Assembly: GCA_004296455.1 (NCBI GenBank)
Contig: AP018280.1
Span: forward strand, 4,588,001 to 4,652,000
Source of the DNA: Calothrix sp. NIES-4101
Lineage (GTDB): Bacteria; Cyanobacteriota; Cyanobacteriia; Cyanobacteriales; Nostocaceae
DNA: 64,000 bases
Direction of reading: 5' to 3'
Each line of letters begins with the position of its first letter. Within the stretch, counting starts at the first letter, position 1. The position numbers were made by a program, and so were the translations under genes. Positions 24,703-63,479 of the stretch are shown here, one piece after another. A model generated the notes under the pieces. That model did not search any database, was not told the origin of the DNA, and was given only the letters and a program-made list of their open reading frames with translations.

Positions 24703-25998
24703 CTAAATTGGCATGGTGATTACAAACTTTGTCCCCTCTCCAGGAACTGATACACAGTGTATTTGTCCATCATGTTTATCTACAATAATTTGTTTAGCGA
24801 TCGCTAGTCCCAAACCAGTACCTTTATTGACACCCTTAGTGGTAAATAAATGGTCAAATATACGCTGTTGAACTTCCTCACTCATCCCAACACCATTATC
24901 TGCAACGATAACTTTGACATGTTGATTTTCAACCAAGGTAGTAATTGTAATTTGGTTGGGATTGGCTGTAATATCTTCGTAACTACGACCTGCACTAGCA
25001 TCTTCTAAGGCATCTATAGCATTTGCCAAAATATTCATAAATACTTGGTTTAGTTGCCCTGGGAAGCATTCCACTTGCGGGATATCACCATATTCTGTAA
25101 ATACTTCAATCGCCGGACGATTTTCGTTAGCCTTGAGACGGTGCTTGAGAATCAAAATTGTACTATCAATGCCTTCATGCAAATTAAATGGCTGTTTGTA
25201 GTCTCGATCTGCCCGCGAAAAGGTTCTTAAACTAGTGCTAATATTTTTAATGCGATCGCAAGCCATTGTCATCGAATCAATCATTTTTGCTAAATCTTCA
25301 ATACAAAAATCTAAATCAATTTCCTCAGCATGTTCGATAATGGCATCGCTGGGATTCGGCAAGCTTTCTTGATACAGCTTCAAGTGTTCGAGAACATCAT
25401 TAATATTTGGTTTTGCTTGTTTGAGGGTGGCGGCAATAAACCCCAAGGGGTTGTTCATCTCGTGAGCAATACCTGCTACCAAATTACCCAGCGCGGACAT
25501 TTTCTCATTTTGAATCAGTTGTAACTGAGCTTGTTGTAACTGTTGCAGTGATTGAGTTAATTCTATGGTGCGTTCTTCTACCCTTTGTTCTAAGGTACGA
25601 GTAAGATAGGAAATTTTCAGGTGCAGCTTTAATCTGGCAATTACTTCTTCCTGTTGGAAGGGCTTGGTAATATAATCAACAGCACCAATTTCCAATCCTT
25701 TCACTTTGTCTGTAGCATCAGACAAAGCCGTCATAAAAATTACAGGAATATTTTGAGTGATTGCATTTGCTTTTAAGCGACGACAAGTTTCAAAGCCATC
25801 AATACCTGGCATCATCACATCCAAAAGAATCAAATCGGGGGCTGCATATTCAGTTTGCTCGATCGCGGATTCTCCATCTGTAGCCATCCGAGCTTTCCAA
25901 CCATATCCCTGAATTGCTTCTGATAGTACCTTGAGATTATTCGGATTGTCATCTACTAACAGGATATGCATGGGCTTTGAGAAAAAATCGTCCATCAT
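24703..25998 (-). CDS. Response-regulator/histidine kinase fusion (REC-HisKA-HATPase)
   Basis: 431 residues. REC domain at about 10-128 with the acidic pair in LLVDDNPNN, the phospho-accepting Asp in [15 protein letters not shown] and the conserved Lys in DYITKPF. A short coiled coil leads to the H-box [14 protein letters not shown]. The catalytic domain has [22 protein letters not shown] and [12 protein letters not shown]. It has no membrane segment. The start codon overlaps the stop of the CHASE2 kinase gene (ATGA), so the two are translationally coupled, and this REC domain is the probable next receiver. The kinase half is clearly paralogous to the kinase at 38579 beside the exoprotein genes. 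Confidence 0.93.
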
Positions 25999-28769
25999 TG
26001 TCGTGCCTCTGCTGTCATCAAAGATTTAATATATTTGCGTATTTTCGAGGTTTGAAAATTAGTAGTTAGTTTCTTTAACTCAGCCACAAAGGGAGCTAGC
26101 TGCTGATTTTGTTTAGTTAGTTCCCCCAATGCTCCTTCAATTGCTGGGATATCTCCCATCATTGCCAGGTGATACAATTGCTGCAAAATTTCCTGGGGTG
26201 GCAAAGCTAATTCACTACTAATTGATTGTTCAGGTTGAGAAGGAGACTGTTTGAGGATAGATTCTGCATATATCCAGTCAGCTTTGAGGACTGATTGTAG
26301 TGCATTCAGCAGTTCATTTACTTGCAGGGGTTTAGGAACAAATGCTGCTGCTCCTGCTTGTAAACTTTGTTGGCGATTTTCCTCAAAGACGTTAGCACTA
26401 GAGACAATAATTGGAATTTCACGGGTTTGGGGATTTGCTTGTAGATGAACCATTAACTCAAAACCATCCATATTCGGCATGGCTAAGTCTAGGAGAATCA
26501 TATCTGGCTGATATTTAGTTGCTAATTCTAATCCCTGTTGACCCTCAAATGCTTCCAGAATTAGACAGCCAATTTCTTGTAGCAAGTTTGTCAAAATGGA
26601 ACGGTGGTTGTCATCGTCATCTACAACCAGAATCCGAGGTGCATCACCCCGAATACCACTGATTTTTTGTGGATTTGCAAGAGTTGTGTTTTCATTCCAT
26701 TCATGGGCAAGAGGTACTGTCACATCCAGCCAGAATAAACTCCCTTCACCCAGATGACTCTGGACTTGAATCTGACTCCCTAGTAATGTCGCGATTCTTT
26801 GACTGATAGTCAATCCTAAGCCTGTACCTTCAGAACGCTGTCCTGCGGAACCGACTTGTTCAAAGGGTAAAAAGATTTTTTCTAGTTGGTTAGGTGACAT
26901 CCCCACACCCGTATCTTCAATTTGAAAACGAATTGTTTTCGTAAGGGATTGACTGGATTCTGATTCAGCTTCTAAAACATCGACTTTAAATGTAACACTG
27001 CCATTATCGGTAAATTTAATTGCATTACCCAGCAAATTAATTAAAACTTGGCGCAATCGTTTTTCATCGGTTTCAATTGCAGCAGGTAATTTATCACTAA
27101 TTGCAACATTAAAACTAACCCCTTTTTGCTCGGCTCGGATACCACAAATCTCAGTGACACCATGTAAGAAACTAGGAATATGAACTACAGTGGGGACTAA
27201 TTCCAATTTACGTGCTTCAATTTTTGATAAATCAAGAATATCATTTATCAGCATTAATAAGTGTGAACCACATTGATAAATAATACTGACACCTTCCTTA
27301 TCTTTATCCTGCAAGTTTGGCGATTGTTCCAACACTTGAGCAAACCCCAAAATCCCATTCAACGGAGTTCGTAATTCGTGGCTCATATTTGCCAAAAATT
27401 CACTTTTGGCATGGTTTGCAGCATCAGCAGCTTGTTTGGCTTCTAATAATTCGTGAGTGCGTTCTGTGACTTTTATTTCTAAGGTTTTGGAATAATCTAA
27501 TAATTGACTGTTGGCAATTTCTAACTGTTGATTAGTTTCTTCTAGTTTCTTTTGTTTATAAGCATTAGTACTGGCAATAACACTACTAATAAATGCAGCT
27601 AAAGCAGGTGTGACCGGAATCATAATACCAGCTAAAAATATGCCATAGCTACCACCTAATAATGCCCCACTCAAACCGACAGTTGACCACAGAATTTTCC
27701 CACCGGGAATCCGGCGTTTGTTGGACATACTAGCTAAATACCAACTACCTAGAGAACCGATCGCCGACCAGAAAACAATCCAGAATGACGTAGATATCCC
27801 AGAAATGCCGTGGATAGTGGTATTACCTATTTTTGCCCCTCGCACCATTTGTAGGGCAATATTGGCATGGATGACTACACCGGGAGTTGGTTTTTGAGCC
27901 GAAAGTAAAGACGAACTGAAGGGAGTGCCGAAAAAGTCATTGGTACTAGTAGCAGTTGAACCAATAAATACCATGCGATCGCTCATTAAATTAGCGGGGA
28001 TTTTTCCCGCCAATACATCACGCATCGTCACTGTTTTAAATGCTACCTCTGAACCATGCCAATTGAGAAGAATTTGATAACCTCCTACATCCCCATCGCT
28101 ATAACCTGCTTCTTGATGTTTCAGAGGTTTGTAAATGGCTTTCCCCAATTGAAACTTCAGTTGCTTTTCATTAACTAATTCCAGGCTAATCTTGTCAGCT
28201 TCGAGATATTTCAAGGCTACACGGGTTGCCAACCCTGCTTTAATTTTCCCATCCTCCTTGGCATCTTCAGCTGTCAACAGGGCACGACGCACATGGCGAT
28301 CGCCATCTAATACCAAATCAGCTAATCCCACCTGGTCATTTTTTTTCAGTTCTGGTGGGGGATTGACCCGCTCTCCAGTGATTTTTTCCACACCGATTAA
28401 ATTGGGAGTAGTGCGAAAAACCTCTACTAACTTTTCGTATCCAGTTCCTTCTGGTAAATCCCGATACAAGTCTAAACCAATTGAGCGGGGTTTTTGTTCT
28501 TTAATTTTTTCTAATAATTTTGCTAACGACCAGTCAGGGACAGGCCATTTTCCTACTGATTGAATATCACGTTCATCAATAGTGACAACGACAATTTCAT
28601 CAGCTATTGTTTGTTGCGATTTCAGTCGCATCCATTCATCACGTAGTTTCCACTCAGGTAAATTAAATAGTCCCAAGGATTGTCCAGCAATGACTGTCAG
28701 AGTAACACTAGGAATAATAATTAAAATACTACGAGTTTTTTGAACAAAGGTCTGGAATTTACACCACAT
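25995..28769 (-). CDS. CHASE2-domain hybrid sensor histidine kinase
   Basis: About 924 residues from the ATG at 28769 (MWCKFQTF). An upstream ATG at 28844 is in frame but would place a strong hairpin inside the coding region. First membrane helix ([16 protein letters not shown]), periplasmic CHASE2 sensor ([32 protein letters not shown]), then three closely spaced helices. A coiled coil leads to HisKA with [15 protein letters not shown]. The HATPase shows [25 protein letters not shown] and [14 protein letters not shown] domain ([32 protein letters not shown]) and a C-terminal helical tail follow. It senses an unknown extracytoplasmic signal and is coupled to the REC-kinase gene. Confidence 0.93.
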
Positions 28770-28812
28770 GCCATATATTAAATTATTTTCAATTCCTGTA
28801 GAAAGAAATAGC

Positions 28813-28837
28813 GGGGAGGGTTTTCGTTTCCCCTCCC
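28813..28837 (-). terminator. GC-rich hairpin between the DUF928 and CHASE2 genes
   Basis: Perfect 8-bp stem GGGGAGGG/CCCCTCCC with a 9-base loop, 58 bases after the DUF928 stop. No long T-run follows, so it may be a partial terminator or an mRNA stabiliser between cistrons. Confidence 0.55.
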
Positions 28838-28894
28838 GATGCAAAAGACACTATTCCGTTTTTGGGTTAGCTGCGTTCTTACTCTCCTAATTTC

Positions 28895-29908
28895 TTAGTT
28901 GGCAGATGATATTAATGGAGCTTTGGCAATCTCTTTCAAGCTAACTGAAGAAAGCAGTTCCCCCCATTGTTTGCTGATAGTTGGATTATTGGGCTGACTG
29001 GCATGGAGTTCTGCCAATGTTGCTACACAGTCATACCACACACCATTTTTACCTAACACTTCTGCTCGCTTGAATGCGTCTTGCTGCTGGATTGCTGTTG
29101 CTAATTCTGCACTAGGCTGGATGCGCTGAATCCAACCATCAACATAAGGGGTGCTGGGACTGAGTTGTCCATCCACCTTCAGTGCTAGGAACCATTGATA
29201 ATTCTTACCCACAGTTAAAGCTGCCGCTTCCTCTGGTAATTTGACTGCGACGACACCAGACTTCCCAGCTACAGGAATCGTCATACTATGGTGCATATTA
29301 CCAACTTCATCTTTGATGCTGAACACAGCTTCTTTAGCATCAGAAGCCGGAAGATATACCATTACTGCCGGACGTTCAGATACTGTTGTTCCATAATAAC
29401 TTTGAGGCATGAGTCCAATTAATGCTGATGGCCCCGTAGCAGCTACTGTCGATGGATTCAAGTAGTAAGTACCAACGCGGGAAGCCCCACCACTTGCCTG
29501 CTGTGGAGCGCTGTTACCCTTGGCTGGAGTAAACAGATTCCCACGGGAAGCTCCACCACTAGCATGTTGCGGAGCGCCGTTACCCTTGGCTGGAGTAAAC
29601 AGATTCCCACGGGAAGCTCCTCCTGTTGCTTGTTTGGGAGCACCATTTCCTCTGCCAGGAGTAAAGAAACCACCACGGGAAGCTCCTCCTGTTGCTTGTC
29701 TGGGAGCCCCATTTCCTTTGCCAGGAGTAAAGAAACTACTACGGGAAGCTCCTCCTGTTGCTTGGGACGGGGCACTATTTCTAGATGGTGGTGTAAATGT
29801 GACAGCATTCGCACTACTGCATACAGTGCTCGTTATCAGAGCAATTACCGTAGCTAAATGCCAGGGACGTAGCACAGTCAATGAACTCACAAAATATCTG
29901 CTTTTCAT
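28895..29908 (-). CDS. DUF928 domain secreted protein with 22-residue tandem repeats
   Basis: 337 residues. Signal peptide (LATVIALITSTVCSSANA). Residues about 45-150 hold five tandem copies of a 22-residue unit of the type NGAPxQATGGASRGxxFTPG, the last one degenerate. The C-terminal ~180 residues are the DUF928 domain (RPAVMVYLPASDAKEAVFSI, YQWFLALKVDG, WYDCVATLAEL). DUF928 proteins are found in cyanobacteria, often near CHAT and CHASE2 genes; their role is unknown. The basic, Gly-rich repeats look like a surface or matrix-binding tail. It lies between the CHAT protease gene (190 bases upstream) and the CHASE2 kinase gene on the same strand. Confidence 0.85.
   Translation of the reverse strand: MKSRYFVSSLTVLRPWHLATVIALITSTVCSSANAVTFTPPSRNSAPSQATGGASRSSFFTPGKGNGAPRQATGGASRGGFFTPGRGNGAPKQATGGASRGNLFTPAKGNGAPQHASGGASRGNLFTPAKGNSAPQQASGGASRVGTYYLNPSTVAATGPSALIGLMPQSYYGTTVSERPAVMVYLPASDAKEAVFSIKDEVGNMHHSMTIPVAGKSGVVAVKLPEEAAALTVGKNYQWFLALKVDGQLSPSTPYVDGWIQRIQPSAELATAIQQQDAFKRAEVLGKNGVWYDCVATLAELHASQPNNPTISKQWGELLSSVSLKEIAKAPLISSAN
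29480..29800 (-). repeat. 66-bp coding tandem repeat
   Basis: About four to five copies of a 66-bp unit encode the 22-residue repeats of the DUF928 protein. The copies are similar at the DNA level, suggesting recent expansion and possible copy-number variation. Confidence 0.8.
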
Positions 29909-33026: not shown

Positions 33027-33036
33027 GGTTATTAGG

Positions 33037-34726: not shown

Positions 34727-34736
34727 GGTTATTAGG

Positions 34737-35215: not shown

Positions 35216-35224
35216 ATAACAAAC

Positions 35225-36495: not shown

Positions 36496-36718
36496 ATAAC
36501 AAACACAGTTAAGGTAATAAATAAAATATACAAGTCAAGCAACTTCTTAGTTAATTTTACATAACCATTAGGACAGATTCAGGAAAATTTGATGGCAAAT
36601 TCAGGGCAATATCGCCTCTCCTTTGGCTATATAGGAGATTGAATTGTTATTTGCATGAGATAAATGGACGGAAAGTTACATCTGTGTGTCAGACATAAGC
36701 AAAGGAGAAGGGTGTCAA

Positions 36719-38518: not shown

Positions 38519-38578
38519 ATTACAGATTCAGCAGCTTAACTAACTTGGCAGAAGTAATTAAAGGTGGCTAAAATCCCT

Positions 38579-40246: not shown

Positions 40247-40433
40247 ATTGCGCCTACTGAATTTCACTTAGATGAAAATGTGAGTAACAAAATTGGCAAC
40301 CCTAAAATTAAAGTTGAAATGGAGATAAGGTGATGAAAGTAACTTCTTTGTGCTTGGGTTTGGTGAGTGGAATTTTCACTGTTGGGATATTGCTACCAGC
40401 TTATTCTCAAGTGATATCAGATGGAATTATTAA

Positions 40434-45842: not shown

Positions 45843-45917
45843 TTAAAGTTAATCATGTTATTAAAAATTTGATTTAGGGAACTATGAGTTTAACTCAGGT
45901 GGAGGAGATTTTTGCGA
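45843..45917 (+). repeat. Conserved leader repeated before the exoprotein genes
   Basis: About 65-75 bases: TTAATCATGTTATTAAAAA, then TTTAGGGAACTAT, then TCAGGTGGAGGA ahead of the start codon. Near-identical copies precede TPS3 (48405-48480) and TPS4 (51368-51432). A fourth, before TPS5, is cut by the group II intron (53932-53979 joined to 56498-56515). It includes a strong GGTGGAGG ribosome-binding site. The leader was evidently copied together with the genes. Confidence 0.85.
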
Positions 45918-48404: not shown

Positions 48405-48480
48405 TTAAAGTTAATCATGTTATTAAAAAATGTCATTTAGGGAACTATAGATTTAAATCAGGTGGAGGAAATTTTTGCTA

Positions 48481-51367: not shown

Positions 51368-51432
51368 TCATGTTATTAAAAATTTGATTTAGGGAACTAT
51401 GAGTTTAACTCAGGTGGAGGAAATTTTTGCTA

Positions 51433-53931
51433 ATGAAAACCATAACCTTTCTATTAATATTAACAACTGGTTTATTAACACCAGGGATAATGCGATCGGC
51501 TATGGCTCAAATAGCATCCGATGGGACTACCAACACCATTGTCAACCCAAGTGGGAATAATTTTACTATTCTTAATGGTATTGAAAAAGGTAATAACTTA
51601 TTTCACAGCTTCAGCAATTTTTCTGTACCCACAAGTGGTGCAGCTATTTTTGATTTAACAAATACGCCAAATATTACTACTATTTTTAGCCGAGTTACAG
51701 GTGGAAATATTTCTAATATTGATGGACTAATTCAAACTCTCAACGCGAATAATTCTGTGAGTTTGTTTTTAATGAATCCCAACGGAATTATGTTTGGGCA
51801 AAATGCCAAATTGGATATTGGCGGTTCATTTGTAGGGACGACAGCAAATAGTATTAAGTTTAGCGATGGTACAGAATTTAGTGCAGTTGATTCAAATACA
51901 ACTCCTTTATTGACTATGAATGTCCCTGTCGGCTTGCAGATGGGCAGTAATCCTGGTGCAATTACCGTCGAAAACACCGGACATCTTATCACCATAGGCT
52001 TTTTTGCCCCCGCCGATCGCAGCAACAATCCCATCGGGTTACAAGTTGGGGCAGGCAATACCTTAGCACTGATTGGTGGAGCCGTGAACTTCTCTAGTGG
52101 CATTGTTACCACAAATGGGGGGGGACATCTAGAAGTTGGAAGTGTTAGTGCTGGGCAAGTCAAACTTAACTCCACTTCTACAGGGTTGGTTGGGGATTAT
52201 TCAGCAGTCAAGCAATTCAACGATATTAATTTGGCACAACAATCTTTGTTAGATGCCAGTGGTAGTGGTGGCTCAATCCAATTACAAGGACGGAATATTA
52301 GCTTCGCAGAAGGTTCTGGTGCCTTGCTACAAAACTTTGGTACACAACAATCTTCTCAGGGCATTACTATCAACGCTACTGGGTCGATTAACCTAAGTGG
52401 AAATACATCCTATGGCAAATTAGGGAGCCTCATCCAAATCGATAATTTAGGCATCACACAAACGGGTGATATCAACCTCTCCGCCGCACAGTTATCCCTC
52501 AAAGATGGGGCACACATCCATAACTGGACATTTACGCCAATACCTGGTGGCAATATTACAGCCAATGTTGCAGGTGCGATCGCTATCGAAGGTTTTGCCC
52601 CAACTAATCCTCTCGTTTCAACTTCAATCACATCCATCACATTGAATTCCGGCAAAGCAGGTGATATTACTATTTCAAGTGATAACTTAAGAATTCTGAA
52701 TAGTGGTAGTATCAGCACCATATCCACAGGCTCAGGGCAAGCAGGAATTTTAAGATTCAATGTAGCAGATTTGGTCGAAATTGCTGGTAATAATCCCTTT
52801 ACAGCATTATCAAGTTCAGTAATTTCATCGGCTAGTAACACAGGAGATTCTGGTAGTACGTTCATCAACACATCTAGATTAGTGATTCGAGATAGTGGAA
52901 TACTAGGGTCTAGCACGGTTGCATCAGGTGCAGCAGGTAGCGTGACAGTTAATGCTTCGGAATCCGTAGATGTTAGAGGTAAAGGCAGTGGATCAATTCT
53001 TCCTGCCCGCATTGCCTCAAGTGCCGAAATTCTCGATCCAGTTACTCAAGCTATCCTTGGACTTCTTGCCATTCCTACCGGTAATGCAGGCTCTCTAAGC
53101 ATTGACACCCCATTGTTGCGTGTCACAGATGGGGGATTTGTCACTGTCAAAAATGATGGACCAGGTAAAGCAGGAGATTTGCAGATTAATGCCAACTCAA
53201 TTTTCTTAAACAATCAAGGTAGTATAACCGCATCGACAGCTTCTGGCGATGGAGGAAATATTAGATTAAAGTTGCAAGATTATTTGTTGATGCGTCAAGA
53301 GAGCCTTATTTCCGCCACTGCCAATGGTGATGGTGATGGTGGCAATTTATCAATTAACGTACCGATCGCCGTTGGGTTAGAAAATAGCGACATCATTGCT
53401 AACGCCGTGGAAGGTCGTGGCGGTAACATTAACATTACTACGCAAGGGATTATTGGTCTAGCATTTCGCAATACCCTCACTCCCCGCATAGACCAAACAA
53501 ATGACATTACTGCAAGTTCCCAGTTTAATGTCAATGGCGATGTACAAATTAATAACTTTGGTGTTAATCCAAATTCTGGTTTAGTTGAACTACCAGGGAA
53601 TGTTACCGACCCGTCACAAAAAATTGCTACAGGTTGTGCTGATACGAGTGGTAGTAGTTTTATCGCCACAGGCAGGGGTGGAATACCGCAAAATCCCAGT
53701 CAAGAAGTGAGGAGCGATCGCACTTGGTCTGATATTCGTGATATCTCTGCATTCCGCCAAAATCAGCCAGTACAAGCAAAAATCTCCACCACTCCAGAAG
53801 TCCCCACAGAAACTTTTACTCAAGCTACTTCTTGGCATCGCAATGCTCAAGGAAAAATTGAATTAGTTGCTGATAAAGTTTCTACTAATATGCAAAAAGC
53901 ATTAACCTGTGCTGCTGTTCCTAAAAGTTAA
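51433..53931 (+). CDS. TPS4: intact TPS exoprotein (type B)
   Basis: 832 residues from the ATG at 51433. Signal peptide ending SAMAQ; TPS domain with NNFTILNG, FSRVTGGNISNIDGL and NPNGIMFG. The centre is type B (NTLALIGGAVNFSSG, GGHLEVGSVSAGQVKL, GDYSAVKQFNDI). Unlike TPS2 its TPS domain differs after about residue 145 (SAVDSNTTPLLTMNVPVG), and its distal part has the variant AFRNTLTPRIDQTNDI also found in TPS6. C-terminus with two Cys and AAVPKS as in all paralogues. Secreted, probably a surface fibre or adhesin; no receptor or toxin domain is recognised. Confidence 0.93.
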   Translation: MKTITFLLILTTGLLTPGIMRSAMAQIASDGTTNTIVNPSGNNFTILNGIEKGNNLFHSFSNFSVPTSGAAIFDLTNTPNITTIFSRVTGGNISNIDGLIQTLNANNSVSLFLMNPNGIMFGQNAKLDIGGSFVGTTANSIKFSDGTEFSAVDSNTTPLLTMNVPVGLQMGSNPGAITVENTGHLITIGFFAPADRSNNPIGLQVGAGNTLALIGGAVNFSSGIVTTNGGGHLEVGSVSAGQVKLNSTSTGLVGDYSAVKQFNDINLAQQSLLDASGSGGSIQLQGRNISFAEGSGALLQNFGTQQSSQGITINATGSINLSGNTSYGKLGSLIQIDNLGITQTGDINLSAAQLSLKDGAHIHNWTFTPIPGGNITANVAGAIAIEGFAPTNPLVSTSITSITLNSGKAGDITISSDNLRILNSGSISTISTGSGQAGILRFNVADLVEIAGNNPFTALSSSVISSASNTGDSGSTFINTSRLVIRDSGILGSSTVASGAAGSVTVNASESVDVRGKGSGSILPARIASSAEILDPVTQAILGLLAIPTGNAGSLSIDTPLLRVTDGGFVTVKNDGPGKAGDLQINANSIFLNNQGSITASTASGDGGNIRLKLQDYLLMRQESLISATANGDGDGGNLSINVPIAVGLENSDIIANAVEGRGGNINITTQGIIGLAFRNTLTPRIDQTNDITASSQFNVNGDVQINNFGVNPNSGLVELPGNVTDPSQKIATGCADTSGSSFIATGRGGIPQNPSQEVRSDRTWSDIRDISAFRQNQPVQAKISTTPEVPTETFTQATSWHRNAQGKIELVADKVSTNMQKALTCAAVPKS

Positions 53932-54556: not shown

Positions 54557-56404
54557 GTGATTTGGAAGATGAAGTTTCCAGTAGCAGTAAATATGTCTAA
54601 TACGAGTTTTAAGACTACGGGGGAATGGCGCTCTATCAACTGGCGAAAGCTGGAGCGTAGAGTGTATAAGCTGCAAAAGAGAATTTATCGAGCCTCTCAA
54701 CGTGGCGATGTAAAAGCATATCGCAGACTCCAAAAAACCTTGATGAATTCTTGGTCAGCAAGAGCATTAGCGGTTCGTAGAGTTACCCAGGATAATAAAG
54801 GGAAAAAGACGGCTGGTGTGGATGGTGTTAAGTCGCTGACCCCAAAACAACGTCTAGCCCTAATCGATAAACTAAAACTGGGTTCTAAGGTTAACCCGAC
54901 TAGGCGTGTATGGATTCCCAAGCCTGGAAAGGATGAGAAAAGACCTTTAGGTATACCTACAATGAAAGACCGAGCCTTGCAAGCGCTCACCCTACAAGCC
55001 TTAGAGCCGGAATGGGAAGCGCGATTTGAACCTAACTCATATGGGTTCAGAGCCGGAAGGTCATGTCATGATGCAATCGAGGCAATATTCAATTGCATCA
55101 GGTATAAACCAAAATTTGTGCTTGATGCTGATATAGCAAGTTGTTTTGACCGCATCGACCACTCGGCACTGCTTAAAAAACTTTCGACATCCCCTACCAT
55201 TCGCCGTCAAATACGAGCTTGGTTGAAAGCGGGGGTAATAGACGGTAAGCAGTTGTTTCCAACATCGGAGGGAACGCCCCAAGGCGGCACTAATTCGCCA
55301 CTTTTGGCAAATATTGCCCTCCACGGCATGGAAAACCGAATCAAACAAGCCTTTCCAAAAGGTACAATCCTCAAAAAAGGTAAATATTCTGGTTATCAAC
55401 CAGGAGCGATGTTGATTAGGTACGCCGACGACCTGGTGATTCTTCATGAAGATATAACCGTCGTCCAAAAATGCCGTGAAATCATGGAGGAATGGTTAAA
55501 GGACTATGGCTTGGAATTAAAGCCCAGTAAAACAAGATTGATACATACCCTATCAACATATGAAGGGCAAAAACCAGGATTTGATTTTCTTGGTTTTAAT
55601 ATACGTCAATTCTCCAAAGGAAAACACCATACAGGTAAAAATACCAAAGGGGAAAAACTAGGCTTTAAAACCATCATCACCCCAAGTCAAGAAAAAGTTA
55701 AGGCACATTATGACCATTTAGCTCGTGTAATTGATGCTCATAAAGCAGCACCTCAAGCGGCGCTCATTAAACAATTAAACCCGATTATTCGGGGTTGGGC
55801 TAATTACTTTGCTACCGTCATCAGCAAGGAAATCTATGCATTTTTAGATAACCTGGTTTACCTAAAACTAGTCTCTTGGGCAAAATTCCGTCACCCCAAA
55901 AAATCATGCTTTTGGGTGTCAAAGAAATATTGGCACTCAATAGACGGTGATAACTGGGTATTCGCAACCAAGGAAGCAGGAGAAAACCAAGTCCGGTTAC
56001 TTGACCATACCCGCATTAAAATAGCGCGGCATATAAAGGTTATTGGCGTTGCTTCCCCATACGATGGGAATTTGATTTATTGGAGTACAAGAATGGGTAA
56101 CAACCCGGAAATGCCCAAAAGGGTGGCTTCACTCTTGAAATGGCAAAAAGGGAAATGTGCCCACTGTGGTTTGTTCTTCCGTGAAAACGATGTGATGGAA
56201 ATTGACCATATCATCCCAAAATCGCAAGGTGGTAAGGATGAATATAAAAATTGGCAACTTCTACACAGGCATTGCCACGATACAAAGACTGCTGAGGATA
56301 GTAGTCCCGGCACTCAATCTGGTTGTAATAGTACCAAGCCTAAACCACCCTCCGAACTAAATTGGTTTTGGGAAGAGGATATGTTGGTAATGAGGTATAC
56401 CTGA
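54557..56404 (+). CDS. Group II intron reverse transcriptase/maturase with HNH endonuclease
   Basis: 615 residues from GTG 54557; in-frame ATGs 4 and 12 codons later are possible starts. RT motifs in order: RRVWIPKPGKDEKRPLGIPT, ALEPEWEARFEPNSYGFR, VLDADIASCFDRIDH, TPQGGTNSPLLANIAL, IRYADDLVI (YADD active site), FDFLGFNI. The maturase (X) domain follows with IIRGWANYFATV. The C-terminus has an HNH nuclease (CAHCGLFF, EIDHIIPKSQGG, LLHRHCHDTKT). All catalytic residues are visible, so the intron is probably both splicing- and mobility-competent. The layout is that of chloroplast-like group II introns common in cyanobacteria. Confidence 0.95.
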   Translation: MIWKMKFPVAVNMSNTSFKTTGEWRSINWRKLERRVYKLQKRIYRASQRGDVKAYRRLQKTLMNSWSARALAVRRVTQDNKGKKTAGVDGVKSLTPKQRLALIDKLKLGSKVNPTRRVWIPKPGKDEKRPLGIPTMKDRALQALTLQALEPEWEARFEPNSYGFRAGRSCHDAIEAIFNCIRYKPKFVLDADIASCFDRIDHSALLKKLSTSPTIRRQIRAWLKAGVIDGKQLFPTSEGTPQGGTNSPLLANIALHGMENRIKQAFPKGTILKKGKYSGYQPGAMLIRYADDLVILHEDITVVQKCREIMEEWLKDYGLELKPSKTRLIHTLSTYEGQKPGFDFLGFNIRQFSKGKHHTGKNTKGEKLGFKTIITPSQEKVKAHYDHLARVIDAHKAAPQAALIKQLNPIIRGWANYFATVISKEIYAFLDNLVYLKLVSWAKFRHPKKSCFWVSKKYWHSIDGDNWVFATKEAGENQVRLLDHTRIKIARHIKVIGVASPYDGNLIYWSTRMGNNPEMPKRVASLLKWQKGKCAHCGLFFRENDVMEIDHIIPKSQGGKDEYKNWQLLHRHCHDTKTAEDSSPGTQSGCNSTKPKPPSELNWFWEEDMLVMRYT

Positions 56405-56423
56405 CAAGTACCAATTCACTGAG

Positions 56424-56497
56424 GAGCCGTGTGAATTTAACGGTTCAAGCACGGTTTTGGAGAGCAGTGGTTCCCGTGAGGGAATCACTGACTTTAC
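56424..56497 (+). ncRNA. Group II intron domains V and VI
   Basis: Domain V is 34 nt (56424-56457): outer stem GAGCCGTG/CACGGTTT with the AGC triad, a 2-nt AG bulge, inner stem TGAATT/GGTTCA and a TAAC loop. Domain VI follows with the stem AGTGGTTCCC/GGGAATCACT closed by GTGA. A candidate branch-point A lies at 56491, close to the 3' end. Confidence 0.88.
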
Positions 56498-58166
56498 TAG
56501 AGGAATTTTTGAAGAATGAAAGCCGTACCCTTTCTATTAATAGTAACAACTGGGTTATTAATACCAGGGATAATGCGATCGGCTACGGCTCAAGTCGTAT
56601 CGGATGGAACTACTAACACCACTGTCAACTCAAGTGGTAATAATTTTACTATTCTTAATGGCATAGATAAAGGTAATAATTTATTTCATAGCTTCAGTAA
56701 TTTCTCTGTGCCTACAAATGGTGCAGCGAGATTTGATTTAGTAAATACACCCAATATTACGACTATATTTAGTCGGGTTACAGGTGGAAATATTTCTAAT
56801 ATTGATGGATTAATTCAAACGCTCAACGCGAATAATAATGCCGTGAGTTTGTTTTTAATGAATCCTAACGGGATTGTATTCGGAGAAAATGCCAAGTTAG
56901 ATATTAGCGGTTCGTTTGTAGGGACGACAGCAAATAGTATTAAATTTGCCGATGGGGTGGAATTTAGTGCAGTCAATTCCAGCGAACCACCTCTGCTGAC
57001 AATGAGTGTACCTGTAGGGCTGCAAATGGGAATTAATGCCGGAGCAATTCAAGTTCAAGGTACACCTGCGAACAATCCTCAGTTTCGGACACCGACATTG
57101 TCGATGAAAGCAAATCAGACCCTGGCGTTGATTGGAGGGCAAATCGATGTCAATAGTGCCAATATTTCTGCACCGGATAGTCATGTGGAATTGTGGGCAA
57201 TGCAAAATGGCACAGTGAATATTCCTACCTTTGGCAACTGGCAATTGGCAAGTTCATCCCTCTCCCCTACCTGGGGAACCATCACATTGCAGCAGTCTTC
57301 CTCTATTGATACAAGTGGAGCTAATGGAGGAGCAATTAATATTCGCGGACAGGGATTAACCCTACAAGAAGGCTCAAATATAGGTTCAGCGACGGGTACA
57401 AATGGCCAAGGAGAGGGGATTACCGTCCAGACAACAGAATTCGTGAATCTACTGGGTGCGTCTCATCCTAGTAATGTTGTATTTCCGGGTTTAAATACCA
57501 GTGTCAGAGGAGGTATGGCGACTGCTGGGAATATCACAGTTGAGACTCCACGCTTGCAAATTGACAATGGGGGATGGTTAAGCTCTGTTAACATGGTTAC
57601 CAATTTTTCTGCCCTCTCGTCGCAGCCAATTAGGAATAGCAAAACAGGGAACATTATGGTTCGGGCTACTGAGATAGACATACGTGGTTATACACCATTC
57701 ATTAATCCAGCTACAAGAGCTGTTGTATCCAGTGCAATTACAACACTTACAGGCGGAACACAGAATGAGAGTGGTGCAATTACAGTAGAAGCCGAACGGA
57801 TACGGTTGCAAGATGGGGGGCGTATCAGTACTGATTTGTTTGGTCTCTTAGCACCTGCAAGCGGCAGAGCAGGAAATATTTTTGTTACAGCAAGCCAAAG
57901 TCTAGATATTCTTGGCGCTAGCCCAGCTAATGCTACGAGTGCAATCATTAGTTCAATTAACATTTTGGCGAATGGTCAAGGGGGCAATGTTACAGTTAAC
58001 ACAGGACAACTAAGGCTCGCTAAAGGTGGGACTATCTCTAGTCAGATTACAGGGAATCCAAATGTGGCGATTGCAGGCAGAGGCTAGGCTGTTGACTTTG
58101 TTGGTTTTAAGGCACCATTGCTTCATACAATAATAGTGTCGTTAATACTTAGCACATTCAAAGCCC

Positions 58167-58418
58167 ATGCAGGAGTTTAAAAGCCCAGTTAGTAGATTAG
58201 CACGTTTGTTTCAGAAAGGTCGAGATAACTGGAAAGAAAAAGCACTATTAAAACAAAAAAAGATTAGAGCCTTAGAAATCAAGGTTAGAGATCTATTAGA
58301 TTCAAGAGAAGAATGGAAAAATCGCGCGTTGATGGCAGAGTCAAAACTAAAAGAGTTAAACATTGAAGGAGATTTAGACGAAAAAAAGAGGAAATTCAAG
58401 TCGAAGCAGAAATCATAG
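58167..58418 (+). CDS. IS accessory coiled-coil protein
   Basis: 83 residues, very basic, almost all charged helix (LARLFQKGRDNWKEKALLKQ, then heptad-like KIRALEIKVRDLLDSREEW). No catalytic motif. It lies 5 bases before the transposase start, so the two should be translated together. It may bind DNA or the transposase. Function inferred from position only. Confidence 0.75.
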   Translation: MQEFKSPVSRLARLFQKGRDNWKEKALLKQKKIRALEIKVRDLLDSREEWKNRALMAESKLKELNIEGDLDEKKRKFKSKQKS

Positions 58419-58423
58419 AAGCT

Positions 58424-59725
58424 ATGGAATTAAATGTGAAGGGTCATCATTATGATGCCAAAATAATTCAGCAAGCACTCTTACTTTTAATTGAATGTGG
58501 TATCAGTTTTAGAGGAGTAGAAAAAGTATTTGAGTTGTTTAATAATTATGAAGAGCAGGCAACTCCAAGTTTCAGTTGTGTGAGAAAGTGGTTGGCTCGG
58601 ATTGGAATATATGAATTGACAAAAGAGAAAGAATATCGTGATGATTGGATATTTATTGTCGATTTGACATTAGAATTAGGGAAACAAAAAGCGTTGGTAA
58701 TTTTAGGCGTTTCACAGCAGCATATTGAAGAAAATGTGATGAAGCAGAAAAGAGGGTTGGCGCATGAAGACGTGAAAATTTTCGGATTAGAAATTATGGA
58801 TTCTACGAAAGGAGAGATTATAGAATCAAAACTAGAAAAAATCAGTCAAAAAGTCGGCGTACCAGTACAAATAGTAGCGGACAATGGTAGCGACCTAGCT
58901 CGTGGAATCAAGCTATACCAGCAAAATCACCCAGATATTATCTATACCCATGATGTGACTCATGCAATGGCTTTACTTTTAAAATACCAGCTAGATTCGG
59001 ATGAGAGATATCAGTCATTTATTCAAAAATGTAATATCAGCAGACAAAAATTACAACAAACAGATTTATCATTTTTATCTCCTCCAACACAACGTTCTCA
59101 ATGTCGTTTTTTTAATGTAGAAAGGTTGACAAATTGGGGGATTAAATTACTAAATTCTTCTCCAGACACTTTAATTAAATTAATGCCAGATTCTGACCCT
59201 TCGCTGATTACTCAGAAAATAGTAGATAAATTGGGATGGTTAGTTGACTACGAATCAGACCTAATTCAATGGAACCAAATGGTGTCACTCACACGAGGTG
59301 TTGAAACTCAACTCAAACAATCAGGAATTAGTCATAAAACTCTCGATTTTTTTGAACAAAATAAAGTTATATTTGATGATAATTCTCTCCAGAAACTTCA
59401 ACAAAGTATTTTGGGTTATTTGTCTGTTCAATGCCGAAAAATTAAAAACCAATCTACTTTTTTAGCTACTTCTGATGTGATTGAGTCATTGTTTGGAAAA
59501 TATAAGCAATTTTCCGCGCGCTGTCCATTTAAAGAAATGGGTCAGATGCTGCTAACCATCTGTTTATCTACTATGAATCTGACGACAGCTTTGATTAAAA
59601 ACGCACTTGAAACAATTAGTTTTTCAGACGTTGAAGCATGGCTATCTGAAGTTTTTGGTCAATCCACACTATCAAAACGAAAAACGTTGTTTTCAGGGGA
59701 TTGTGACGACATTAAAAGTGCATGA
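58424..59725 (+). CDS. Putative DDE transposase of an unclassified IS
   Basis: 433 residues. N-terminal helix-turn-helix-like segment (KIIQQALLLLIECGISFRGVE, a degenerate HTH; FSCVRKWLARIG). Candidate catalytic residues: Asp in FIVDLTLELGKQ, Asp in QIVADNGSDLARG, and Glu in ATSDVIESLFGKYK. A large helical insert lies between the second Asp and the Glu. The gene ends about 40 bases before the right terminal repeat. The element context (ends, target duplication) makes the transposase role safe; the family is not recognised. Confidence 0.8.
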   Translation: MELNVKGHHYDAKIIQQALLLLIECGISFRGVEKVFELFNNYEEQATPSFSCVRKWLARIGIYELTKEKEYRDDWIFIVDLTLELGKQKALVILGVSQQHIEENVMKQKRGLAHEDVKIFGLEIMDSTKGEIIESKLEKISQKVGVPVQIVADNGSDLARGIKLYQQNHPDIIYTHDVTHAMALLLKYQLDSDERYQSFIQKCNISRQKLQQTDLSFLSPPTQRSQCRFFNVERLTNWGIKLLNSSPDTLIKLMPDSDPSLITQKIVDKLGWLVDYESDLIQWNQMVSLTRGVETQLKQSGISHKTLDFFEQNKVIFDDNSLQKLQQSILGYLSVQCRKIKNQSTFLATSDVIESLFGKYKQFSARCPFKEMGQMLLTICLSTMNLTTALIKNALETISFSDVEAWLSEVFGQSTLSKRKTLFSGDCDDIKSA

Positions 59726-60998
59726 ACTTTTACCATGTCAAAAGGCACAGAGTCAACAGCCTAGGCAGAGGCACAGCAGGGGATATCACTATTCACGCTA
59801 CTGATGTACAGGTCAGTGACCCCATTATTGAGCGGTTTAGTCAAGCTCCCAGTGGTATCACTGTAGCGGTAGGGCAAAATTCCATCGGTCAGGGGGGTAA
59901 AATTAACCTGACAGCAGATAACCTGCGCGTCTTTAACGGCGGACAAATTACCTCCTCTACAGAGGGTAATGGTGTGGCGGGTAATGTTAACTTGCAAGTT
60001 AAAAATATTACTGTAGAAGGCATATCTCAACCTTTAAGCAATGGTCAGATTTTACCTAGTAACATCACAGCAACTTCTACTACTACCTCTGATGCTGGTT
60101 CAGTGAGTCTAGTAGCAAATCAACTCAATGTTCTTAATAATGGGCAAATTTCTGTCAGTAATACAGGTGGTGGCTATTCTGGAAACTTGCTAGTTAATGC
60201 CAACCAAATCAAGCTGGAGCAAGGAGGTAGTCTGATTTCGGAAGTTTCCGCAGGCGATCGCGGTAACATTACTCTCAATACTGATGTTCTATTGATGCGT
60301 TATGGCAGTAAAATTAACACCAATGCCACAGATACAGCCACAGGTGGCAACATCAGGATTAATGCACCGATTATTATTGGTTTAGAAAATAGCGATATTA
60401 CAGCAAATGCGATTGAAGGGGCTGGTGGCAATATTGATATCACGACTCAAGGTTTATTTGGACTAGAATTCCGCGACCAACTCACCCCGGAAAGTGACAT
60501 TACAGCTAGTTCCCAATTTGGAGTTAGTGGCACAGTACAAATTAATAACTTTGGTGTTGACCCGAATTCTGGTTTAGTAGAATTACCAGCGAATGTTACT
60601 GATCCGTCACAACAAATTGCTACAGGTTGTGCAGACACCAGTAGTAATAGTTTTATTGCCACCGGAAGAGGTGGAATACCCCAAAATCCCAGTCAAGAAT
60701 TGAGGAGCGATCGCACTTGGTCTGATGTACGTGACATCTCTGCATTCCGCCAAACTCAGCCAGTACAAGCGAAAATCTCCACCACTCCAGAAACCCCCAC
60801 AGAAACTTTTACTCAAGCTACTTCTTGGCATCGCAACGCTCAAGGAAAAATTGAGTTAGTTGCAGATAAACCTTCTACTAATATGCAAAAAGCATTAACC
60901 TGTGCTGCTGTTCCCAAAAGTTAATTTCAGTTCTAATAGTGTTAGAAATTATACTATCTTGGGAATCTTAAATACTAAGTGTAAAACGGGATTGGGTT

Positions 60999-63479
60999 AT
61001 GGGTAATATCTCTGTTTGGTTTGGTTTGATTGGCGGAATTATAACAGGTGCAATTTGGAGTAATTCTGTTAATGCTCAAGTAGTTTCCGACGGAACCCTC
61101 AAAACTACCGTTTCCCAAAGTGGTAACAACTTCACTATTACAAATGGCGATCGCATTGGCAATAATTTATTTCATAGCTTCAGTCAATTTTCTATTCCCA
61201 CCAATGGCTCTGCATTATTTAACAATACCGCAGATGTACAAAATATTTTTAGTCGTGTCACTGGCGGTAGTGTTTCCAATATTGATGGTTTAATTCAAGC
61301 CAATGGTAGTGCTAATCTATTTTTGTTAAATCCCAGTGGGATTATTTTTGGACAAAATGCCACCTTGAATATAGGCGGTTCATTTGTAGGAACGACAGCG
61401 AATAGTATTAAATTTGCTGATGGGGTGGAATTTAGTGCCACTAATCCTGGTGCAACACCATTGCTGACGATGAGTGTCCCCATTGGCTTGCAAATGGGCA
61501 GTAACCCAACCCCCATCACGGTTCAAGGAACAGGTCATGCCCTAACAGCAGTCAGCACCGTCGCCCCCATCACTCAAAACCCCAGTTCCTCAGAACTGCG
61601 GGTAAAGCCAGGAAAAACCTTGGCATTGGTGGGGGGTAGCTTGAATCTCACTGGTGCAACCTTGAACGCGCCCGAAGGACGTTTGGAATTGGGGAGTTTA
61701 GACGGAGTAGGACTGGTCAGTTTGAATCCCATCTCCCAAGGTTATCAGTTAGGTTATGAGAGCGGACAAAGCTTTGCAGATATCCAACTTACCCAAAAAT
61801 CCTTCCTAAGTATAGGAGCATTACCAACTGTAGGGGCATTAAATGCTGGTTCCGTACAGTTGCAGGGGAAACACATTCAAATCAGCGATGGTTCAATTAT
61901 ATTTTCCAAAAATCTGGGAAATGTCGCTGGGGGTGAATTTTTTTTACAAGCTTCAGAAGGGATTGATATTGTGGGGACAACAGCCAACGCCCAAATTCGT
62001 AGTGGCATCCGCTCTGAAGGCTTGAATACTGGCGCAGGTTCACCCATCCGTATCATTACTCCCCACTTAACCATCTCCCAAGGAGCAGGAGTCAACACAA
62101 ATGCTTTTGGATTGGCAGCCAGTGGTGATATTCTGATTGATGCCGGGACAGTGGAGTTATCTGGTTTCTCTCCCATCAACCCCACAGGAGTAACCTCCCT
62201 GACTACCTCTTCCCGAACAGCTAAGTCAGCAGGCAATCTCTCTATTAACAGTAATAATCTACTAGTTTCTCAGGGAGCAGCCATCTCTTCAGTGGCATTA
62301 GCGAGTGGTTCCACAGGGCAAGTAACTATTCGCAGTAAAAATACAACTGTCACAGGAGACAATCCGGCAGGACTCTATAGCAACATTAGTGCAATCACCT
62401 ATGGCACAGGCGATGCCCAAACCTTAACGTTAGATACAAACCGATTACAACTGCTCAATGGGGGAGTGGTTAGCACCACATCCTTCTTGATTGGTAAAGC
62501 TGGAAATTTAAACATTAACGCGACGGAATCGATTCTGATTGACGGACACAGCCAGGCTAACAATAGCAGTATTAACTCAGCCGTTCTTATCCCTCCATCA
62601 TTACTCCAAAAGTTATTCAATTTGCCCAATATTCTGTCGGCGAACGCCGGAACTGTGAATGTAAGCACCCCTAACTTGACTTTAAAGAATGGCGGTGTAG
62701 TTAGTGTTACCAATCAGGGTACGGGTGATGGTGGCAATATCAAAATTGCTGTTAGTAAGATGTTCTTAGACAATCAAGGTAGCATTCAAGCTCAAACGAC
62801 ATCGGGTGAGGGAGGTAATATTACCTCACAAGTTAGCGAACTGTTGTTACTACGTCACAATAGCTTGATTAGTGCAACATCAGCAGGTACGGGTAATGGC
62901 GGTAATATTAACATCAATGCTCCAGTAATCGCTGGGCTAGAAAACAGTGACATTGTTGCTAATGCAGTGAAAGGAAGAGGTGGCAATATTGATATCACCA
63001 CACAAGGTATTATTGGTCTAGAATTCCGCAATACTCTGACTCCAAGAGTTGACCTCACCAATGACATTACCGCTAGTTCCGAATTTAATGTTAATGGCAC
63101 AGTTCAAGTCAATACTATTGGTGTTGACCCTAATTCTGGTTTAGTCGAACTACCAGCAAATATAACCGACCCGTCACAACAAATTGCTACAGGTTGTGCA
63201 GATAGCAGTGGTAGTAGTTTTATCGCCACCGGAAGGGGTGGAATACCACAAAATCCCAATCAAGATGTAAAGAGCGATCGCACTTGGTCTGATGTGCGTG
63301 ATATCTCTGCATTCCGCCAAACTCAGCCAGTACAAGCGAAAATCCCCACCACCCCAGAAACACTTGTGCAAGCTACTTCTTGGCATCGAAATGCTCAAGG
63401 AAAAATTGAATTAGTTGCAGATAAACCTTCTACTCCAGTGCAACAACAATTAACCTGTGCTGCTGTTCCCAAAAGTTAG
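60999..63479 (+). CDS. TPS6: intact TPS exoprotein (type B, divergent)
   Basis: 826 residues. Its signal peptide (MGNISVWFGLIGGIITGAIW, cleavage near VNA-QV) and leader differ from TPS2-5, so it is an older copy. TPS domain with NNFTITNGDRIGNNLFHSFS, VTGGSVSNIDGLIQ, NPSGIIFG and GGSFVGTTANSIKF. Centre of type B character (KTLALVGGSLNLTGATLNAP, GRLELGSLDGVGLV). The last ~200 residues again match the array (GLEFRNTLTPRVDLTNDI, then the two-Cys end with AAVPKS). Last gene of the array; predicted to be exported through the ShlB partner. Confidence 0.93.
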   Translation: MGNISVWFGLIGGIITGAIWSNSVNAQVVSDGTLKTTVSQSGNNFTITNGDRIGNNLFHSFSQFSIPTNGSALFNNTADVQNIFSRVTGGSVSNIDGLIQANGSANLFLLNPSGIIFGQNATLNIGGSFVGTTANSIKFADGVEFSATNPGATPLLTMSVPIGLQMGSNPTPITVQGTGHALTAVSTVAPITQNPSSSELRVKPGKTLALVGGSLNLTGATLNAPEGRLELGSLDGVGLVSLNPISQGYQLGYESGQSFADIQLTQKSFLSIGALPTVGALNAGSVQLQGKHIQISDGSIIFSKNLGNVAGGEFFLQASEGIDIVGTTANAQIRSGIRSEGLNTGAGSPIRIITPHLTISQGAGVNTNAFGLAASGDILIDAGTVELSGFSPINPTGVTSLTTSSRTAKSAGNLSINSNNLLVSQGAAISSVALASGSTGQVTIRSKNTTVTGDNPAGLYSNISAITYGTGDAQTLTLDTNRLQLLNGGVVSTTSFLIGKAGNLNINATESILIDGHSQANNSSINSAVLIPPSLLQKLFNLPNILSANAGTVNVSTPNLTLKNGGVVSVTNQGTGDGGNIKIAVSKMFLDNQGSIQAQTTSGEGGNITSQVSELLLLRHNSLISATSAGTGNGGNININAPVIAGLENSDIVANAVKGRGGNIDITTQGIIGLEFRNTLTPRVDLTNDITASSEFNVNGTVQVNTIGVDPNSGLVELPANITDPSQQIATGCADSSGSSFIATGRGGIPQNPNQDVKSDRTWSDVRDISAFRQTQPVQAKIPTTPETLVQATSWHRNAQGKIELVADKPSTPVQQQLTCAAVPKS

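Follow-up and report, generated by a model that had tools for sequence, protein, structure and literature searches.

In many cyanobacteria, genes for large exported surface proteins lie beside, or are fused to, that of a separase-like protease, which is likely to cut or release these proteins at a common C-terminal tag. The window, i.e. the whole stretch of 64,000 nucleotides from Calothrix sp. NIES-4101 analysed here, contains a rearranged, partly broken copy of this protease/exoprotein gene set. To our knowledge, the targets of cyanobacterial CHAT proteases are mostly unknown. If the proposed pathway is true, it would provide a compartment and a substrate class for many of these proteases and a context for DUF928; furthermore, CHAT would join the protease families known to mature two-partner secretion (TPS) proteins.

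Results

The locus consists of two divergent arms separated by 3,985 bases that contain two IS transposases. The following features were located (CTD, C-terminal domain):

24703-25998, minus strand: REC + histidine kinase (Pfam Response_reg, HATPase_c), last gene of the CHAT arm
25995-28844, minus strand: CHASE2-HisKA-HATPase-REC sensor hybrid kinase (Pfam)
28895-29908, minus strand: DUF928 protein (Pfam) with N-terminal hydrophobic segment
30100-32700, minus strand: TPR-CHAT caspase/separase-like predicted protease (Pfam; dyad H731/C778) with N-terminal signal-like segment
33043-34720: IS element between the arms, candidate ends (transposase Pfam; 13-base terminal inverted repeats)
35225-36495: IS element between the arms (transposase; 17-base terminal repeats; 9-base direct repeat at the ends)
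36686-38518, plus strand: ShlB/TpsB outer-membrane transporter with POTRA (Pfam)
38564-40246, plus strand: second histidine kinase, 55% identical to the REC kinase over 294 residues (paralogous core)
40430-41828: IS copy breaking TPS1 near its 5' end (repeat comparison)
41829-42944, plus strand: TPS1 middle piece with TPS domain, broken gene (Pfam; tblastn match from residue 36)
42945-44343: second copy of the TPS1 IS in opposite orientation, interrupting TPS1
44344-45842, plus strand: TPS1 C-terminal piece with CTD (CTD match)
45912-48404, plus strand: TPS2, intact exoprotein (Pfam TPS domain; CTD)
48475-51367, plus strand: TPS3, broken (short insertion near 48650-48810)
51427-53931, plus strand: TPS4, intact exoprotein with CTD (Pfam)
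54557-56404, plus strand: group II intron reverse transcriptase/maturase with HNH (Pfam)
56422-56497, plus strand: group II intron 3' end (Rfam RF00029, 43.7 bits)
56516-58087, plus strand: TPS5 N-terminal piece (Pfam)
58088-59760: mobile element breaking TPS5 (10-base terminal repeats; 4-base direct repeat)
59761-60924, plus strand: TPS5 C-terminal piece with CTD (CTD match)
60999-63479, plus strand: TPS6, intact exoprotein with CTD and TGRGGIPQNP motif (Pfam)

Pfam searches and the dyad motifs recovered everything that the sequence-only reading had placed in the CHAT arm, i.e. a TPR-CHAT protein with intact His/Cys, a DUF928 protein, a CHASE2 hybrid kinase and a REC kinase. The ShlB transporter and the second kinase, described as paralogous to the REC kinase, were likewise found. 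The claim of six TPS exoprotein genes holds for the TPS domains of the array, but only three genes are intact: TPS1, TPS3 and TPS5 are interrupted by mobile elements. The two IS copies in TPS1 show 2 mismatches in 1,399 bases, and a group II intron sits between TPS4 and TPS5. The intact genes TPS2, TPS4 and TPS6 gave PF05860, the N-terminal TPS domain, and NCBIfam adhes_NPXG above cut-off; a cognate ShlB-type transporter (36686-38518) is linked to the window TPS genes. When the last 270 residues of TPS6 were modelled, repeated strands with a block pLDDT of 82-96 over residues 1-100 pointed to a beta-helical body.

The arms had also been described as separated only by recent ISs. Two transposases do lie in the gap, but they did not cause the layout: another genome (G085, locus L009) has the same two divergent arms. 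Its CHAT and ShlB genes lie about 1,030 bases apart, and this interval gave neither a frame of ≥150 residues nor a match to the window's transposases. An origin of the divergent layout from ISs is therefore ruled out.

The CHAT domain of the predicted window protease matched PF12770 (E 6.1e-64) and keeps a His-Cys dyad in VHLATHG (H731) and LSACDT (C778); a simple hydropathy scan placed an N-terminal hydrophobic segment at residues 10-31. The dyad motifs were found in 38/38 CHATs of one set and in 17/17 of another that includes two full fusions, which argues for catalysis. Against PDB sequences, the best 60 of 99 matches of the TPR-CHAT profile look like TPR proteins, and the CHAT domain alone gave nothing meaningful at E ≤ 1. 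NCBIfam searches with the nine intact locus proteins returned only kinase, TPR, Omp85-type and adhes_NPXG matches. The Calothrix genome of the window contains 39 CHAT matches; a CHAT-CHASE2 frame also occurs in this genome.

The DUF928 protein has a hydrophobic segment at residues 18-36 by the same type of scan, and four tandem 66-base repeats (D12) precede its domain. Its structure model is of low confidence (mean pLDDT 62.9). A Foldseek search against the PDB at E ≤ 0.001 gave 2 matches, the MtxA C-terminal domain and FlgD (query TM-scores 0.29 and 0.34), which were not taken as function.

The CHASE2 kinase showed hydrophobic segments at 39-60 and 391-409 (simple hydropathy scan), and its frame overlaps that of the REC kinase by 4 bases. 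In 13 named loci (defined below), the CHASE2 gene is followed by a REC-kinase-like gene. A pair of kinases that senses the surface state and sets expression, as the sequence-only reading suggested, is speculative: the CHASE2 and REC kinases are regular operon members, but the second kinase, next to ShlB, seems confined to the window's lineage, as its N-terminal half (270 residues) matched the window's genome only, among the loci compared.

Linkage was analyzed in six genomes against 1,000 random shifts, using 148/195 CHAT, 59/60 CHASE2, 38/39 DUF928, 83/83 TPS and 21/29 ShlB matches, with ShlB matches under 50 bits omitted. These families, which the sequence-only reading had regarded as a possible integrated locus, cluster far above random placement. 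DUF928 was found within 5 kb of CHASE2 in 29/38 cases (null mean 0.61) and within 10 kb of CHAT in at least 27/38 (null mean 2.68). Within the latter distance, at least 48/83 TPS matches had a CHAT (null mean 6.74) and 11/21 ShlB matches a TPS (null mean 1.00).

Gene order was determined in 60 named loci, which represent the best 80 of 490 stretches and therefore favour close relatives. CHAT is visible in 21 of the 60. The usual order in these, co-directional, is ShlB, TPS genes, TPR-CHAT, DUF928, CHASE2-kinase-REC and REC-kinase, on one strand and with mostly short gaps. CHAT follows a TPS gene on the same strand in 21/21 and precedes DUF928 in 20/21, the exception being L075, where the 5.2 kb after CHAT contain no DUF928 and no CHASE2. 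ShlB through CHASE2 was seen in one piece in 7 named loci.

The partners also occur apart. No CHAT follows the last TPS gene in 17/38 named loci with more than 3 kb of sequence there, and among the matches listed for the six genomes, 22/58 CTD-bearing TPS proteins have no CHAT within 15 kb; at such loci only a protease encoded elsewhere, acting in trans, could serve the exoproteins. Conversely, a listed CTD within 1 kb is absent for at most 91/127 long TPR-CHAT matches, and in 26 loci examined, the 3 kb upstream of 5 TPR-CHATs contained no member of these families. Four of the 7 DUF928 loci of the window's genome lack a TPS within 30 kb.

The six TPS paralogues of the window share a C-terminal domain consisting of a Cys, the motif F-x-x-TGRGG[LIV]PxxP and a second Cys near the end; most separate TPS proteins carry it. 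In the three intact window TPS proteins, this CTD has no Pfam or NCBIfam match. Among 41 CTDs below 60% identity, the first Cys is kept in 41/41, Phe in 39/41, Arg or Lys in 37/41, the last Pro in 39/41 and the last Cys in 39/40; the basic residue at the proposed cut site is missing in 4/41 of these divergent domains. In a set of 208 sequences, much of the CTD is conserved and the motif does not stand out. The motif region of the AlphaFold2 model (model residues 141-230) reached a pLDDT of 24-35; exposure of the CTD and its disulfide therefore stay putative. As the proposed site lies between the two Cys, a cut might leave the halves joined.

The presence of CTD and long TPR-CHAT was compared in 50 TPS genomes, i.e. 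those with a best E < 1e-30 (50 of 66 at E ≤ 0.001, 53 being over the cut-off; 146 genomes searched). Both were found in 42, neither in 8 and only one in none, where absence of TPR-CHAT is not certain since 6 candidates were scored per genome; Fisher tests on this distribution ignore genome relatedness. A long TPR-CHAT was a match of ≥438 bits to a model of 845 positions. The 127 such matches, some covering part of the model, leave out the second piece of one gene (genome G054). Ten further genomes with a best E of 1e-69 to 1e-82 were scored as lacking it. The CTD matches number at least 150, those listed coming from 32/43 genomes. Within families f5, f8 and f17, TPS genomes of both states are present, and CTD and TPR-CHAT change together there. 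In one genome (G044), a CTD match (8.9e-15) occurs although TPS and TPR-CHAT are both missing.

Where a CTD is listed within 1 kb of a TPR-CHAT match, it lies upstream on the same strand in 35/36 cases. Two of the 35 are one-chain fusions, in which a single protein of 1,626 residues comprises TPS, CTD and TPR-CHAT with ShlB upstream (genomes G113 and G103). A second type joins TPS and CHAT on one chain without CTD: this applies to 17/17 fusions in genomes G093 and G123, and to 10/14 TPS proteins of the eight genomes that lack both CTD and long TPR-CHAT. The His pattern was unmatched in three TPS-CHAT fusions (2/17 and 1/10). A containing frame was found for 80/83 TPS matches; two of the missing three are the window's own broken genes, TPS1 and TPS3. 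TPS forms that are fused have lower scores and may represent an old separate lineage. A simple replacement of the CTD by CHAT is disfavoured, since G113 and G103 keep the CTD ahead of the fused TPR-CHAT; an association of the CTD with TPR-CHAT in particular explains the data better.

Discussion

Membership, order, linkage, the dyad, CTD conservation, fusions and matched presence/absence were computed; everything below about cutting and its position, the compartment, exoprotein release and regulation is inferred. The sequence-only reading had proposed that CHAT may process the exoproteins. Its placement of both in one system is supported by co-occurrence and strengthened by the fusions, the gene order and the matched presence/absence, whereas processing itself is what we infer; taken together with its proposal on the kinases, that reading is partly supported. 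The partnership data do not tell which of CHAT and TPS acts and which is acted on.

We lean towards an exported CHAT protease that acts on the CTD of TPS exoproteins, thereby releasing or maturing them. ShlB would export TPS exoproteins ending in the common CTD, and TPR-CHAT, having an export signal, should meet this domain in the periplasm or at the surface. The TPR half would recognise the CTD and the CHAT half would cut it, with the conserved Arg/Lys or its vicinity as the most likely site. Cutting would either mature the exoprotein or detach it from the transporter or the cell surface. With a protease domain on the same chain and no TPR half, the CTD tag would not be needed. DUF928 may be an exported accessory protein, and the CHASE2 hybrid kinase with the REC kinase is most likely a signalling branch answering an envelope signal. 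A wider generalization is tentative: a tag-and-cut pathway common to cyanobacterial surface proteins and under CHASE2-kinase control, in which an extracytosolic CHAT would recognise the tag of many different exoproteins and open, by a cut inside it, a Cys-closed CTD loop that holds them at the outer membrane; other lineages would have built the protease into the exoprotein.

Alternatively, the system may serve surface sensing linked to cell death or defence: a TPS protein engaged as sensor or by phage contact would activate CHAT against other envelope proteins, the CTD being the activating contact and not a substrate. One published source lists CHAT with the effector domains that bacterial defence systems use (PMC10907252). 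Furthermore, a protein with filamentous haemagglutinin N-terminal domain is mutated in the phage-resistant Nostoc substrain RD5, for which a table gives the entry 'Lower', taken here as phage adsorption (PMC10811720, in part). Three broken TPS copies in the window could also be expected for phage receptors under selection. We nevertheless consider this explanation unlikely. PADLOC gave only short weak matches for nine window proteins (best 30 bits, for the REC part of the CHASE2 kinase; CHAT 20 bits), the export signal would make the protease act outside the cytosol, and a CTD that tracks the protease fits a substrate or docking site at least as well as a trigger.

Somewhat more doubtful is a role in folding or anchoring, in which CHAT would use its TPR half to grip the CTD and keep the exoprotein C-terminus in the periplasm, with proteolysis secondary or absent. 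TPR arrays bind peptides, the conserved terminal Cys pair of the CTD resembles C-terminal anchors of other TPS proteins, and CTD and TPR-CHAT are found together in a full fusion; but the His and Cys motifs are kept throughout both CHAT sets, full fusions included. Mere co-regulation, i.e. envelope genes adjoining for joint transcription while CHAT and exoprotein never touch, would agree with the mostly short gaps on one strand but is improbable, given that single-chain fusions exist and that CTD and TPR-CHAT are absent from the same genomes.

Among the literature matches listed, none describes a system of CHAT and TPS proteins, most subscription papers lying outside the search. In the same literature, with its few subscription papers, 'filamentous hemagglutinin' and 'CHAT domain-containing' were not found together, and 'DUF928' had a lone mention, in work on WD40 proteins.

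Cleavage by CHAT at the CTD can be compared with several known systems. Craspase acts in the cytosol. This type III-E CRISPR protease shares the TPR plus CHAT architecture and the His-Cys dyad, is separase-like and is activated by RNA within the CRISPR complex, according to the part of the source used (PMC9729208); neither gRAMP/Cas7-11 nor another CRISPR gene occurs among the Pfam matches of 30 window proteins. In Trichodesmium, CHASE2 is found on a metacaspase (PMC2853523), so that CHASE2 and a caspase-like protein are joined as in the CHAT-CHASE2 frame of the window's genome; however, that protein belongs to the metacaspase p20 family, not CHAT, and the portion of the paper used gives no TPS context. 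The TPS domain, beta-helix body and ShlB/FhaC transporter resemble FhaB/FhaC and other two-partner secretion systems. Unlike in CdiA, the C-terminus of the window TPS proteins is a conserved domain of six paralogues and not a variable toxin with immunity gene. A possible parallel is the type IX secretion system (T9SS), in which the clan CD cysteine peptidase PorU acts on a C-terminal domain common to many surface proteins; secretion route and domain differ from the window system. As maturation proteases of TPS proteins, the part of a review used here names SphB1, LapG and 'yet unidentified proteases', and no CHAT partner (PMC5422565).

The closest parallel is found in Pseudomonas aeruginosa, where the TPS adhesin CdrA has its C-terminal tail cleaved by the periplasmic protease LapG (PMC5422565) and is thereby freed from the surface under LapG-LapD control (PMC4694147), as stated in the parts of both sources used. 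The CHAT protease is unrelated to LapG, the Pfam matches of the window protein at E ≤ 0.001 all being of CHAT or TPR type, and the sensor is a CHASE2 kinase instead of LapD/c-di-GMP; a Pfam scan of 20 locus proteins revealed no GGDEF/EAL c-di-GMP receptor. Here, in addition, the protease gene lies beside the TPS genes, the exoproteins have a common C-terminal domain, and fused versions exist. What both would share is a protease acting on the C-terminus of a TPS protein and thereby freeing the exoprotein.

Results

Pfam scans bore out the domain content that the sequence-only reading had assigned to the two arms of the window:

Minus strand: TPR-CHAT protease
Minus strand, 28895-29908: DUF928 protein
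Minus strand: CHASE2 hybrid kinase
Minus strand: REC kinase
Plus strand: ShlB transporter
Plus strand: second kinase
Plus strand: TPS gene array (TPS1 to TPS6, in plus-strand order)

The His/Cys pair of the CHAT protein, described earlier as intact, is present as H731 and C778; the single hydrophobic segment of this protein (residues 10-31) is followed by what we read as a signal-peptidase-like site. The proposed paralogy of the kinases holds over the kinase core (55% across 294 residues). The predicted array of TPS exoprotein genes is present, but three of the six genes are broken: TPS1 is split by two IS copies differing by 2 mismatches in 1,399 bases, TPS5 by a transposon, and TPS3 by a short insertion at 48650-48810. 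The ends of the TPS3 insertion, GGCTCTTC/GAAGAGCC, show an apparent short direct repeat and resemble ends that are presumably of the ISL3 type. A group II intron with an HNH-bearing maturase lies in the TPS4-TPS5 spacer (54557-56497), and a seventh, intact TPS gene with the C-terminal domain (CTD) shared by these exoproteins was found 4.6 kb past the window end (L022:4590-7115). In the DUF928 gene, four tandem 66-base repeats (29478-29741) ahead of the domain encode 22-residue units rich in Gly/Ser/Ala. Additionally, positions 13397-14506 encode a protein with an Ice-binding-like adhesive domain (PF20597), likely another surface protein, and a 702-residue frame at 2119-4227 gave no Pfam match at 0.001.

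The CTD comprises about 180 C-terminal residues common to TPS paralogues; in the three intact TPS proteins of the window it matched neither Pfam nor NCBIfam. Conservation was determined from 41 sequences of less than 60% identity, drawn from 83. The strongest block opens with Cys (41/41) and Phe (39/41), followed by T-G-[R/K]-G-G-[L/I/V]-P-x-x-P, with the first Gly kept in 38, the basic residue in 37 and the last Pro in 39 of the 41 sequences; the final Cys of the CTD is kept in 39/40. AlphaFold2 modelled the end of the beta-helix well but the motif region poorly (pLDDT of 24-35 over model residues 141-230), a result that a flexible tag would give, as would too shallow an alignment.

Occurrence was analyzed in 146 cyanobacterial genomes spread over the phylum. 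The CTD was found in 43 genomes and a long TPR-CHAT match (≥438 bits to an 845-position model) in 42, all among those 43; six TPR-CHAT candidates were scored per genome, and single absences are therefore uncertain. In the sole CTD genome without a long TPR-CHAT match (G044), the CTD match is weaker and TPS is absent. A strong TPS match (best E <1e-30) was obtained in 50 genomes; of these, 42 contain both CTD and long TPR-CHAT and 8 contain neither. DUF928 occurs in 49/146 genomes, 41 of these also with the CTD.

The association of the five families proposed from the sequence alone was found as clustering beyond chance in six genomes (1 to 10 contigs each), when anchors were shifted 1,000 times around their own contig. 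CHASE2 lies within 5 kb of DUF928 in 29/38 cases (null mean 0.61, maximum 7). Within 10 kb of DUF928, CHAT was found in 27/38 (null mean 2.68) and TPS in 13/38 (null mean 1.14); CHAT lies within 10 kb of TPS in 48/83 (null mean 6.74, maximum 23), a count in which 17/83 TPS are themselves CHAT fusions, both CHAT counts being among the CHAT matches listed. TPS lies within 10 kb of ShlB in 11/21 (null mean 1.00). In these six genomes no enrichment was observed for ShlB and CHASE2 within 10 kb (2/21; null mean 0.57, count reached in 121/1,000 shifts) or for TPS and DUF928 within 5 kb (2/83; null mean 0.78). The gene set is not complete in every copy; of this genome's seven DUF928 loci, four (3347197, 4439667, 5055895, 6610030) lack a TPS match within 30 kb.

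A CTD scan (best 80 of 490 stretches) yielded 60 loci, mostly from Nostoc and Calothrix, whose examined DNA contained CHAT in 21, DUF928 in 20, CHASE2 in 17 and ShlB in 24. At these loci, CHAT was downstream of a same-strand TPS gene in 21/21 and DUF928 downstream of CHAT in 20/21; at the remaining one (L075), no DUF928 was found in the 5.2 kb after CHAT. ShlB, TPS, CHAT, DUF928 and CHASE2 stand in unbroken order at 7 of the 60 loci, and no CHAT follows the last TPS gene at 17 of the 38 loci with >3 kb examined there. Median gaps were 293 bases for TPS-CHAT, 186 for CHAT-DUF928, 134 for DUF928-CHASE2 and -4 for CHASE2-REC kinase. Where CHAT is found the genes usually form a single run, and the ancestral order is therefore likely ShlB, TPS repeats, TPR-CHAT, DUF928, CHASE2 kinase, REC kinase. 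In a second set of 26 TPR-CHAT loci, picked around DUF928 or CTD matches, the nearest upstream gene of the searched families was a same-strand TPS/CTD gene in 15, ShlB in 5 and CHASE2 in 1; at 5/26, none of these families was found within 3 kb upstream. The divergent order of the window also occurs in G085 (L009), and the kinase adjoining ShlB in the window is outside the common gene set.

Of 14 TPS proteins in the 8 TPS genomes lacking the CTD, 10 include CHAT in the same polypeptide. For the eleventh (G070), a CHAT gene starts 59 bases after the TPS gene, whose close relative in G087 is a single frame; two others (L158, L167) are truncated by the contig end, and the last, of 861 residues (L159), lacks both CTD and CHAT. 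None of the 17 TPS-CHAT fusions of G093 and G123 has a CTD, which is present in 58/63 separate TPS proteins of the six genomes; four of the five exceptions come from short frames (270 to 544 residues). Furthermore, G113 and G103 encode one 1,626-residue protein comprising signal, TPS, beta-helix, CTD (TGRGGLPPNP), TPR and CHAT; ShlB precedes it by 1.3 to 1.6 kb in the same orientation.

A fusion of a second type joins a CHAT-like stretch to CHASE2 within a single open frame (L016:3819-6179; G000:C1:4048034-4049605) and adjoins another DUF928 gene of this genome; a CHASE2-metacaspase has been described from Trichodesmium (PMC2853523). A 1,753-residue frame of G060 (L145:9086-14347) matching both TPR and TPS adjoins DUF928 and TPS-CTD genes, possibly representing a further fusion order.

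Discussion

Linkage, gene order, matched occurrence and fusions point to CTD and TPR-CHAT as direct partners outside the cytosol. In the simplest case TPR-CHAT would cut the CTD, and the exoprotein may thereby be released or matured. Separase-group enzymes often cut after basic residues, and the CTD tag contains a nearly invariant one. The bacterial CHAT domain has been described as nearest to separase (PMC9729208).

The CHAT-TPS set may alternatively, though with lower probability, act in defence or cell death: CHAT is counted among defence effector domains (PMC10907252) and a TPS-type protein was mutated in a phage-resistant Nostoc substrain (PMC10811720), but just short, weak matches were obtained when nine proteins of the window were scanned with PADLOC. 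CHAT serving purely as a scaffold for the exoproteins is less likely, since the His-Cys dyad is kept, its motifs being present in 38/38 CHATs of one set and 17/17 of another. That co-regulation alone groups these genes is very improbable, as it leaves the fusions and the matched absence unexplained. With respect to regulation, the two operon kinases have no DNA-binding domain among their Pfam matches; thus, an output partner is missing.

In the literature searched, no description was found of a CHAT protease associated in trans with a TPS CTD or in cis with the TPS protein; one-chain TPS and CHAT architectures may well appear in public domain databases. Each element is known on its own: export of TPS proteins, CHAT proteases, and the control of a TPS adhesin by a protease. 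Cleavage of the CTD by TPR-CHAT would follow a logic like that described for periplasmic LapG, which cuts the C-terminal tail of the TPS adhesin CdrA (PMC5422565), but would use an unrelated protease, CHAT, and a dedicated tag, the CTD.
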